A DNA stretch of 64,000 nucleotides from assembly GCF_000328625.1 (NCBI RefSeq), contig NC_019978.1, positions 434,001-498,000 of the forward strand, read 5' to 3'. Below the pieces are notes generated by a model, which made no database searches, was not told the origin of the DNA, and was given only the letters and a program-made list of their open reading frames with translations. This DNA is from Halobacteroides halobius DSM 5150 (GTDB lineage Bacteria > Bacillota > Halanaerobiia > Halobacteroidales > Halobacteroidaceae). A program made the translations under genes and the position numbers. Shown piece after piece: positions 1 through 58,070 of this stretch; the first letter of the stretch is position 1, and each line of letters begins with the position of its first letter.

Positions 1-638
1 GATAATGCAACTTATAGCTCGGTCGCCCATAAAGTATCTAAGATAAGAATATACCATATAGGTATTGACGAATTCCTGAATCGTACGGGTCTAGAATTCA
101 AATAACTAGAAATGGTTATACCAACAAAGTTTGGGGTATGTGGGGTAAGTAAGATTCTATATTATGAAAATCCTTATACACTTATAGGGTGTATATAAAA
201 CATACAGGCTCATAGGGAATATCTACGGATATATGTTAAGGGTAAGGTCTTTTGGAACAAGGGAAGTCAGCGACAGGGAGGTCTTAATACCTTTGAACTG
301 GTGGTATAGAAAGAATAATATAATATACCTTAATGCTGATGAAAGTAGTGGCACAGTACCATTGAAGCCTTAATAACAAGAGGTGGAGGGATAGCCACAA
401 GTGAAATAAAATGATAATAAAAGTTATTAATATAGTACATTGGTTTCTTGTAAGACTAATAAAAGTGAAGGGTTTAGACCTTTTAGCTGCCCAATGGGAT
501 TCTGAGAAGAGTTTTCAGCTATATATGATAAATAGTAATAATCATTTTATTTCATGGCACGCCTTGTGAGTTTGAAAATCTCACGCAGGGTGTAGAATGG
601 GGGAAAGCTGGAGATGTTTTCAAAAGCTTACCTATCAT
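1..638 (+). mobile_element. ORF-less group II intron, 3' part (5' end not identified)
   Basis: This stretch has no sustained reading frame but folds like the 3' half of a group II intron. A domain V hairpin lies at 559-593: ACGCCTT pairs with AGGGTGT, a two-base GC bulge sits on the 3' side, GTGAG pairs with CTCAC, and the loop contains GAAA. A domain VI-like hairpin with AAGCT/AGCTT arms follows, with a candidate bulged A at 630 and an intron end near 638 (CTATCAT). A 13-bp inverted repeat (403-415 with 541-553) forms a domain IV-like stem whose loop of about 125 bases holds no maturase gene. GTGGC near 350 can pair with GCCAC near 395. I see no GUGYG-type 5' end, so the intron may begin before the window. 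It may be spliced in trans by a maturase encoded elsewhere, or be dead. Confidence 0.72.
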
Positions 639-667
639 TATAAAGAAGACGCTTTGAAAGAGAAGAG

Positions 668-745
668 ATGATTAGACAAGCAATTGAAGAGGATGATCAA
701 GAAACTTTAATTGAATTAGGATTTATTAAGAAGGAGCTGAGCTAA
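668..745 (+). CDS. Small ORF or exon fragment directly after the intron (25 aa)
   Basis: A 25-residue frame starting MIRQAIEEDD and ending KKELS stops one base before the Gam start codon, so the two would be translationally coupled. There is no recognisable domain. It begins about 30 bases past the predicted intron end and is in frame with upstream exon bases back to a stop at 641-643. It could be the 3' remnant of a phage gene interrupted by the intron, or a genuine small phage gene. It is acidic, and its codon use resembles the downstream phage genes. Function unknown. Confidence 0.35.
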   Translation: MIRQAIEEDDQETLIELGFIKKELS

Positions 746-1906: not shown

Positions 1907-2070
1907 CTTTAAAGGGAGAGAGATAATGAACTATTTAGAAATAGAAAAATAAAAATTTAACAATAAATAAAGGATTTTGTATAAAAAGAGTATAAATAAT
2001 AATTTAAAGGGATAATAGTGCTTTGTTTACAATATTTAATATAAATCAGTTTATAAGGAGAATAGAAAAG

Positions 2071-3306
2071 ATGATTATAAATAGTAATTTGCCTGCACTT
2101 AATGCATTAAATAATTTAAAAAAGAATAATAAGAAAAGCAGAGAAAATATAGAACAATTATCTTCTGGAAAAAGAATTAATAGTGCAGCTGATGATGCAG
2201 CAGGATTAGCTGTATCTGAAAAAATGAAGTCTCAAATGAAAGGGTTAGGTCAAGCCCAAAAGAATATACAAGATGGTATATCATTGCTTCAAAACTGCTG
2301 AGGCTGGAGGTAAAGAAGTTCATAAGTTATTACAAAGAGCTAGAGGGTTAGCAGTACAGGCAGCAAATGATACTTTAACAAAAGACGATAGGAATAATAT
2401 AAACAAGGAAATTACTGAGATAAAAAAAGAAATAAACAATATTGCTAATAATACGCAATTTAATAATATTAATCTTATAGACGGTTCACAGTCTAAGTCA
2501 AAAGAAGAAACTTTTACTGCTCCTTATATTGGAGAGTTTGAAATAACTTTTAATCCTACCTCAGAAGGAAATTTAGGAGTTAGTAATAATAATACAGTAA
2601 CTGGTATTAGGTTTCAGTTTGTAACACCTGCTGATAAAGATGGGGTGTGGTCAGAAGTTGATATTGCTAGTACCCGAGAAAAATCCTTAGATAATCTAAA
2701 AAATAAATTTTATGCAATTAAGTCTGGTTCTGAGGGAGCTCCTAGTGAACAGTTAACAATTGCTAATATGGACATGCATATAGTAGGAAATAAAGTAATT
2801 TTTACTTCGGAGGATCCATTTACTAGAACACATGACCCAGCAAATGGTATACAGGGGCAAAGATATGTCACAGGAAGTCTAGCAGAATTATCTGTTGAAT
2901 ATGAAGATCCTGATGCAGGAATTGAGTTGCAAACAGGTGCTAATAGTAATGATAGTCTGAAAATTAATATTTCTAGTATGACTACAAGTGCTTTAGATAT
3001 AACTGATATTGATGTAAATGATCATTCAAGTGCTTCAACTGCAATAAATAAGTTAGATAAGGCAATAAAAAAAGTTTCTAGTGTAAAAAGTAATTTAGGT
3101 TCTTATCAGAATAGATTAGAACATTCCTTAAATAATGTAAATAATTATGATGAAAATTTAACTAAATCAAAGTCTAGGATTTCAGATCTTAATATGGCAA
3201 AAGGAATATGCAAAAGACTAAAAGAGATATTTTAATGAGTGCTGCTCAATCTGTATTAATGCAAGCTAATGCAAAACCATCACAGATACTTTCATTATTA
3301 AAGTAA
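2071..3306 (+). pseudogene. Flagellin with at least two frameshifts
   Basis: The start is the ATG at 2071 behind AAGGAG (2055-2060), giving MIINSNLPALNALNNL. The conserved flagellin N-terminal helix follows (QLSSGKRINSAADDAAGLAV, NIQDGISLLQ). At about 2291-2294 a run of four A's replaces the three needed for LLQTAEAGGKEV, shifting the frame. The middle (variable domain) and most of the C-terminal helix are in the second frame. Near 3200-3215 another indel leaves the final conserved segment (TKRDILMSAAQSVLMQANAK) in a third frame, ending LSLLK at 3306. Full length would be about 411 residues, normal for a flagellin. The flagellum filament gene is therefore broken here unless these are sequencing errors in homopolymers; other flagellin copies may exist elsewhere. 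Confidence 0.85.
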
Positions 3307-41240: not shown

Positions 41241-42676
41241 CACTATCGTTGCATTGTTAAAAACTATAAATTTACTAATTCAATGAAATTAAATTAGTAC
41301 TCAAAAATTTAATGATAGTTAAATCTTTAAAAAACAATTTTATTCCAAAATGAAGTTATATTCTATATTTAAAGTAAAATATAGAATATATTTCTAAACA
41401 GAGCTCTACTACCCTAAGTCTTAAACAATAAAATTTTATTAAGTAGTATTTATCCATTTACTCCAATGGAAATTATCTTTTACAACTGACAGAATAGAAT
41501 ATTTTATCTTTCTAGTAAGTTTAAGCAATGTCCTTTAAATTTAGACTCTTTTTTAAGTAATTTTAGGATTAAAAATAAAATAACAGCACTATAAATTTGG
41601 ATTAAGACAGCATTTCTATTTTGCCCAAAAAGCTTTTTATCTTTAAATGTTGCTTAATCCATTTAAAAAATAATTCTATTTGCCATCTCTTTTTATACAA
41701 ATAGGCTATTACATGAGCTTCCAAATCAAAACGATTAGTTAGAATATCTATGATTTTATCTTTTCTATTTCGATCAGTAGTTTTTACTCTAACTAATCTT
41801 GTTTTATGTTTCATTCTAGTCTCTGAAGTATGGTCGCCTAGCATTACATCAGCGTCTAATATAACATCTGCTTCTTTATTCTTAAAAGTTAGATCTAATG
41901 AGTTCAATTTTGGTGTTAGATTTTGCTCTAGTCACAAAGTAAATATCATTTTCTATAAATTCATCAAATTTTTGATACTTTATATAAGCTCTATCAAAAA
42001 GATAAGTATAGCTAGGATTAAAAGTTAAATCATCAAATATTTCTTTATCATGAATTACAGCATCACTTATTATTATATTTTCTGGAGCATTAGTATTTAA
42101 ATCATATAGAGTATGAAGTTTAATTCCACCTTTAGTACTTCTAAACTTAGCCCAAGGAAATAATGATAAACATAAGCTTACTGTTGAAGAATCTAAAATT
42201 TTTACAGAACCAATTTCTTTTAATGCTTTTTTTAGCCCTTTATTAGATGTAAGCTTATCAAAGAGGTGTTGAAAAATCTCAAAGAAAATCTTGTAAGTTT
42301 TATCTTCATTTTTTCGAGATAACTGAGACTTGCTTATCTTAGGTAATACTTTATTTAGTTGCTTATTATTCTTTAGATCCGAAACAAAATCTTCTAGACT
42401 TTCTTTTTTAGTAAGATGAAAGTAAAGTAAATATAACAAATGAACTTCTGTTGTTAGTTTATGAACCTTATAATCTGCATTATATTTATTAATTAAACTT
42501 TTTAGAAAATTTTCATCAATAACATCTAGCAGTTTAGTTAAAAGTATGGTACAATAATTCATGATTTCAGCTCCTTTGGTTTCATGAATTTTGTACTGTG
42601 GTGGGTACTTATCCATTTAATCAAAGGAGTTTTGTTTTTTCAATAATTTTTTATAAAAAACGATGCAACGCTAGTG
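41241..42676 (-). mobile_element. IS4-like insertion sequence, inactivated
   Basis: The ends are imperfect inverted repeats: CACTATCGTTGCATTGTT (41241-41258) against AACGATGCAACGCTAGTG (42659-42676) on the right. A 9-bp direct repeat ATTGTTTAT flanks the 1.44-kb element. A further palindrome (ATATTCTATATTT and its complement, 41357-41388) lies downstream of the transposase and may terminate it. The one gene inside is broken by several frameshifts. Confidence 0.88.
41439..42562 (-). pseudogene. IS4-family transposase with frameshifts
   Basis: The reading frame starts at 42562 (MNYCTILLTKLLDVIDENFL), behind AAAGGAG, and runs to about 41900, where it shifts (RSN to TPKLNSLDLTFKNKEADV). A second shift in the T-run near 41630 separates KSFLGQNRNAVLIQIYSAVI from the rest. 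A third lies near 41515 before KIKYSILSVVKDNFHWSKWI. DDE landmarks remain: KILDSSTVSL (first Asp), YLFDRAYIKYQKF (second) and YKKRWQIELFFKWIKQHLKI with Glu. It belongs to a different IS4 subgroup from the element at 31681. Inactive as read. Confidence 0.85.
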
Positions 42677-42685
42677 ATTGTTTAT
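42677..42685. repeat. Target-site duplication of the second IS4-like element, right copy
   Basis: ATTGTTTAT matches 41232-41240 exactly. Confidence 0.85.
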
Positions 42686-57350: not shown

Positions 57351-57462
57351 AATAAAAATAATTCATTTTTTATGGAGGAAAATTGAGTATTATGTAGTAA
57401 TATTATAATAAGCAGGATATTATAGTAATAATTGCAAGTAAACAACTAAAGTAACCCTCGAA

Positions 57463-57560
57463 AAAGGCACACTTATTGAAAGATAAGGTCGCAAAGCTAT
57501 GAGTCTACGGCATAGTATTTATGATGCTATGATGGTCAGGTTACCGAAAGGATATAGGTG
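57463..57560 (+). ncRNA. Cyclic-di-GMP-I (GEMM-I) riboswitch aptamer
   Basis: Conserved pieces appear in order: GCACACTTATTGAAAGATAA with a GAAA tetraloop hairpin, GGTCGCAAAGCTATGAGTCT, and GATGGTCAGGTTACCGAA. The GCAAAGCYAYGRGUCU and GGUUACCG blocks are diagnostic of the GEMM-I class. A terminator follows immediately, so c-di-GMP probably controls transcription of the small gene at 57666. Its ligand is known from the family, not from this sequence. Confidence 0.85.
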
Positions 57561-57830: not shown

Positions 57831-57964
57831 GTTTAAAGTTAGTAGTAACCAAGAGTAAAAGTTGTAATAAATTAAATGGATATATTTACATTTAATTTAT
57901 AATATGTTAAAATAATCATAGAATGCTATATATTTAAATCGATAAATAAAATAAGAGATTATTT

Positions 57965-58070
57965 AGGAGACAGAGAAGTATAATCCATATCTGGTCACCA
58001 GGATTATATGGAGTCAATGGTGAATCCGACCTAAATCTTTTAGTATAATACTAAAAGATTTAGGTCTTTT
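57965..58070 (+). ncRNA. Unassigned structured leader RNA with terminator
   Basis: Upstream of the gene at 58128, TATAATCC pairs with GGATTATA (57979-57986 with 58001-58008), with an inner TGG/CCA pairing. The hairpin is flanked by GGAGACAGAGAAG and TGGAGTCAATGGTG. A strong terminator CCTAAATCTTTTAGT with its complement (58030-58064) and T-run follows. The arrangement of conserved-looking bases, hairpin and terminator resembles a riboswitch, but I match it to no class I can recall. Confidence 0.45.

Follow-up and report, generated by a model that had tools for sequence, protein, structure and literature searches.

How does a group II intron persist when it carries no maturase gene of its own? 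The question is raised by the start of a 64,000-nt stretch of DNA from Halobacteroides halobius DSM 5150 (positions 434,001–498,000 of a one-contig 2.65-Mb genome, hereafter the window), where the original prediction placed an ORF-less group II intron. Such introns were described there as uncommon, which is a fair statement given that a survey of 1,790 representative bacterial genomes, in which H. halobius is among the intron-rich genomes drawn, counted 281 introns without an intron-encoded protein (IEP) out of 2,381 (PMC8919778). In nearly all cases bacterial ORF-less introns have related introns beside them, which may lend their IEP in trans (PMC4424553), and Thermosynechococcus elongatus provides a tested case of such action (PMC2882425). 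For the intron of the window, the reading that we favor, with a probability of about 0.65, is that it was inserted into a transposase gene, is spliced and was mobilized by the maturases of sister introns, and had its 3′ flank replaced at a later time.

Extent and Anatomy of the Intron

The element belongs to the Rfam D1-D4-5 subfamily of group II introns; it is ORF-less, complete from domain I to domain VI and 849 nt long (genome 433,793–434,641). When the upstream flank was included, the Rfam model RF02004 (D1-D4-5) matched with 154.9 bits (cut-off 34.5) from -158 to 33, a span most of which precedes the window, and RF00029 (domain V/VI) gave a gathering-level match of 41.0 bits (cut-off 40) at 557–641. 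The covariance-model search thus recovered the domain V that had been recognized by its two-base bulge and GAAA-containing loop, and the neighboring domain VI likewise contains the expected branch point, most likely the A at 634. The intron begins 208 bases upstream of window base 1 with GTGCGACTTG at genome 433,793, which agrees with the group II 5′ consensus GUGYG, and its bulged A at 634, with the intron end at 641, fits the spacing of 7–8 nt from the 3′ end expected of group II introns. The 5′ boundary is fixed independently by intron-free copies of the interrupted gene whereas the 3′ boundary rests on alignment: aligned relatives place it at 641 (CATTAT/AAAG), 3 nt further than the end near 638 that had been proposed.

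The whole intron lacks any ORF of at least 60 aa, and no maturase gene was found in the 208 nt that precede the window, where one could have lain hidden from the first reading. There is consequently no reverse transcriptase (RT)/maturase of its own, domain IV being 159 nt in length without an ORF, compared to 1,950–1,958 nt in the ORF-bearing relatives. This short domain IV folds better than 200 of 200 shuffled versions (z = -4.0; domain V-VI, z = -3.0), and the 13-bp stem noticed earlier, said to enclose about 125 bases, encloses exactly 125 nt. The features are collected in Table 1.

Table 1. Features of the intron and its surroundings (window positions).
Feature	Positions	Strand	Basis or remark
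ORF-less group II intron, part in window	1..641	+	RF02004 and RF00029 matches; 5′ boundary from intron-free transposase copies, 3′ boundary from alignment
EBS2 (AATTCA)	95..100	+	6 bp with IBS2 (TGAATT) in the 5′ exon
EBS1 (CTATA)	157..161	+	5 bp with IBS1 TATAG at the 5′ exon end
Domain IV, 159 nt	398..556	+	Alignment, folding
First block, 50 bp, matching the Halonatronum saccharophilum outer ORF-less intron exactly in domain IV	399..448	+	
Domain IV stem, 5′ arm, 13 bp	403..415	+	GAAATAAAATGAT
Conserved domain IV motif, candidate maturase-binding site	445..461	+	TTCTTGTAAGACTAATA
Second block, 33 bp, identical to the H. saccharophilum outer intron	510-542	+	
Domain IV stem, 3′ arm, 13 bp	541..553	+	ATCATTTTATTTC
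Domain V	557..594	+	CGC triad, 2-nt bulge, GAAA-containing loop
Domain VI	596..639	+	Bulged branch A at 634
3′ exon, formed by the terminal part of a short ORF and not by transposase	642..745	+	RRRFEREEMIRQAIEEDDQETLIELGFIKKELS
Mu Gam-like gene (phage remnant)	746..1255	+	Pfam PF07352 1.1e-33, phrog_2205
Intron-free copy of the interrupted transposase gene	41953..42677	-	Base 41953 directly precedes the empty intron site

Host Gene and Rearranged 3′ Flank

The 5′ exon is a truncated transposase gene with DUF4372 and DDE_Tnp_1 domains. Two intron-free copies of this transposase in the same genome match it through the last, or last-but-one, base before GTGCG and then continue as transposase, which supplies an exact empty site. 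When ten exons were compared, the intron's own 5′ exon gave the best combined EBS score (24, the runner-up reaching 21); since both EBS1 and EBS2 pair with it, the insertion fits normal target recognition.

The 3′ side is different. Compared to the empty site, only the first AAA of the 3′ exon agrees, and what follows is the end of a phage-region ORF and not transposase, indicating that a rearrangement took place no more than 3 nt beyond the intron. A variant transposase as 3′ exon was ruled out, since the intron-free copies continue differently. The short peptide encoded there has no match in PHROGs, nor was an empty site of its gene found, as no short peptide beside gam in four relatives matched it. 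A breakpoint so near the intron end is suggestive of recombination via a further copy of an intron, more than of a random deletion; no rearrangement partner or reciprocal product was found.

The phage recombination genes predicted just downstream were borne out for a single gene, which is Mu Gam-like. The frame that follows it (1260–1889) resembles a recombination gene by eye and has in-frame TGA and TAG where Trp and Gln are expected, being either a pseudogene or a sequence error. Further along, a flagellin-like gene (2063–3235) is frameshifted in a run of A near 2290. Elsewhere in the window, a c-di-GMP-I riboswitch (57456–57548) and a c-di-GMP-II riboswitch (57957–58040) lie on the same strand within 600 bases.

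Apparent Maintenance of the Ribozyme Core

The state of the core was assessed against nine other aligned family members, from which alone the consensus structure was derived, the window intron being left out. In the window intron all 161 pairs of domains I-III (DI-III) and 28 of the 29 in domains V-VI (DV-VI) are canonical. Departures from the family majority were found at 45 of the 190 consensus pairs, with 30 changed on both sides and one broken, although part of this divergence is common to relatives and such statistics do not prove present function. When the 3′ letters were redealt among pairs of the same kind, 37.1 pairs were broken on average and never fewer than 26. Because the consensus pairs are preserved via compensatory changes the core appears to be maintained; the pairing pattern shows that this RNA stayed functional through most of the time since it parted from its relatives. 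The intron also has two 1-base insertions and one deletion within otherwise invariant stretches, and its deviation at invariant DI-III columns (6.0%) comes close to the top of the 0.8–6.4% spanned by the ORF-bearing members. Its DI-III is 80.5% identical to that of the intron at 363 kb and 72–79% identical to the other members.

Sister Introns and Candidate Helper Maturases

The genome contains 26 RF00029 matches and 23 RT matches, one RT gene being split in two. A search for a related maturase, as had been advised, yielded three sister introns of the same subfamily (at 363 kb, 174 kb, and 829 kb) that carry continuous RT/maturase genes of 613–629 aa. The three RTs score above the TIGR04416 cut-off for group II RT/maturases and are related to group II maturases of solved structure; two of them also show a weak C-terminal IscB match, where an HNH-like motif was read by eye. 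Joining the exons of the 174-kb intron (L035) restores a thyX-like frame, and joining those of the 829-kb intron (L036) restores a phoH-like frame (both read by eye). These genes probably need the splicing of their maturase-bearing introns, and, given that they are interrupted in frame, a functional maturase can probably be supplied in trans.

A domain IV motif (TTCTNGTRAGACTAA) is kept in ORF-bearing and ORF-less members alike and, in the former, is located just before or at the maturase gene start. In IIA introns, binding of the IEP depends critically on the DIVa region (PMC2882425), so that a helper might plausibly recognize the window intron in trans by way of this motif.

Two further ORF-less introns of the genome belong to another subfamily, RF02003 (D1-D4-4): L037 5529–6035 (~995.5–996.0 kb) and L038 6308–6826 (~1474.3–1474.8 kb). 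In both, the D1-D4 match and the domain V match are separated by less than 300 nt, and ORF-bearing sisters are nearby.

Likeness of Domain IV to That of Halonatronum saccharophilum

The closest counterpart of the ORF-less domain IV was found in another genus. Two exact blocks (Table 1) are common to the window intron and the outer intron of a twintron in Halonatronum saccharophilum (L106 1389–3262, G002 C8), where the outer and inner introns are both ORF-less members of RF02004 and the inner one sits in domain IV of the outer one. DI-III of the window and outer introns is 72.8% identical, and at the rate of the core a 55-bp domain IV match at 98% would have p ~6e-7, before allowing for the choice of the stretch. 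Sites common to this pair alone number 19 in the first 112 nt of domain IV, 5 of 605 in DI-III and 0 in DV-VI. The core tree rejects the pair (p-AU 0.006) whereas the domain IV tree joins it at 99/97, both trees being limited by long branches and short alignments and the test having been chosen after the match was seen. Near-identity of domain IV in blocks, although the cores are not sisters, suggests that an ORF-less domain IV may have been exchanged between introns. This is the simplest reading, the alternative being an unusual selection on domain IV. A single crossover, by which DIV-VI would stem from a donor resembling the Halonatronum outer intron and DI-III from a different intron, is not supported for DV-VI, which shares no site with the outer intron alone.

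The same domain IV was absent from viral contigs, and among genome contigs it was found in Halonatronum only, at two loci. Phage records gave one weak domain V-VI match, and plasmid records gave partial core matches, most of them 60–80% identical. A second copy of the Halonatronum twintron, interrupted by a gap, ends near 3764 of L153. Two nearly identical RF02004 introns lie 1,100 bases apart in the same genome (L111, at 1611 and 2711), each preceded by the repeat CGTCAGCTAACATTAGTTTAACG; no domain V match was found for this pair, and an assembly gap lies between the two.

The broader idea that ORF-lessness spreads as a module, that is, that an ORF-less domain IV could be swapped among core lineages and across genera by recombination or template switching, with no deletion of its own needed in each lineage, is offered tentatively, at odds somewhat short of even.

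Weighing the Readings

That the element might not be an intron at all, and that chance hairpins or a MITE whose inverted repeats make the 13-bp stem gave the impression of one, could draw on the RF00029 score, which alone is just 1 bit over its cut-off. This reading has a negligible chance of being right when set against the RF02004 score, the nine aligned relatives, the exact empty site, the EBS/IBS pairing and the pair statistics. Chance hairpins are ruled out by the RF02004 match together with those statistics, and an origin of the stem from a MITE or an IS insertion is ruled out because the stem encloses a motif found at the same place in ORF-bearing introns. The original prediction left a choice between a helper in trans and a dead intron, and the former is favored, with three sister maturase genes present and core pairs kept by compensatory changes. 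The dead version, a relic that was formerly mobile in trans, no longer splices and is decaying among broken IS and phage genes, is unlikely but has real points in its favor: the small indels in conserved stretches, exons that come from a truncated transposase and from another gene, and neighboring genes with in-frame stops or a frameshift. It has to contend with the preservation of nearly all consensus pairs through compensatory changes and with a domain V, a branch A and both EBS that are intact. It is also conceivable, with a considerably smaller probability, that the intron splices without any maturase, as thought for C.te.I1 of Clostridium tetani; the core is complete, and Halonatronum has two kinds of ORF-less relatives, yet its draft genome yielded no close maturase. 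Against such self-sufficiency stand the resident maturases of the same subfamily and the retention of the candidate binding motif in domain IV.

According to the favored account of splicing in trans, the intron would have entered the DDE transposase gene through EBS1 and EBS2 pairing with the target, as in retrohoming, and would be a complete ribozyme in which a folded 159-nt domain IV stands where the maturase gene would be. Its splicing, and its past mobilization, would be due to the RT/maturase of one or more of the three related resident introns, recognition probably taking place via the conserved domain IV motif, and a rearrangement at the intron end would later have replaced the 3′ flank. 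Some observations weigh against this account. The host gene is a truncated transposase, so that splicing brings the host no evident benefit; DI-III of the sister introns is just 72–80% identical and maturases can be specific; and the core has the small indels and the 6.0% deviation at invariant columns described above.

Relation to Known ORF-less Introns

The window intron appears to be one more case of the known kind of ORF-less intron served in trans, whereas the exchanged domain IV may be new. One complete genome here combines a well-delimited ORF-less intron, whose core looks intact and whose empty site is exact, with three candidate helper maturases, so that action in trans is directly testable. 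If true, the domain IV exchange would mean that introns can become ORF-less in a second way, next to a single deletion and its subsequent spread, and would bear on the question of how the dependence of splicing on shared factors arose.

The outer intron of the Halonatronum twintron resembles the window intron in being ORF-less, in its RF02004 core and in the 50-bp and 33-bp exact matches of domain IV. It differs in that the cores are not sisters (AU p 0.006), in being interrupted by a second ORF-less intron, and in that no maturase of the RF02004 subfamily was found in the Halonatronum draft genome (best 34% identity) whereas three are present in H. halobius. C.te.I1 is likewise an ORF-less bacterial group II intron (PMC4424553, PMC3919590), in a genome without a related maturase, unlike the window intron with its three resident sister maturases. 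With ORF-less introns in phage settings the window intron shares the possibility of a helper in trans; its 5′ exon, unlike theirs, is a transposase gene, and only its 3′ flank is phage-like, by rearrangement. TeI3 of Thermosynechococcus elongatus (PMC2882425) offers the fullest parallel: ORF-less copies exist beside ORF-bearing sisters, most of the domain IV ORF is gone, EBS/IBS pairing is good, a sister maturase is the likely helper, and the insertion is in a mobile element (for TeI3, in some cases). Nevertheless, TeI3 comprises 17 copies derived from one deletion, with mobility in trans shown by experiment, while the window intron is one copy of its subfamily, more diverged from its sisters and with a domain IV like that of another genus.
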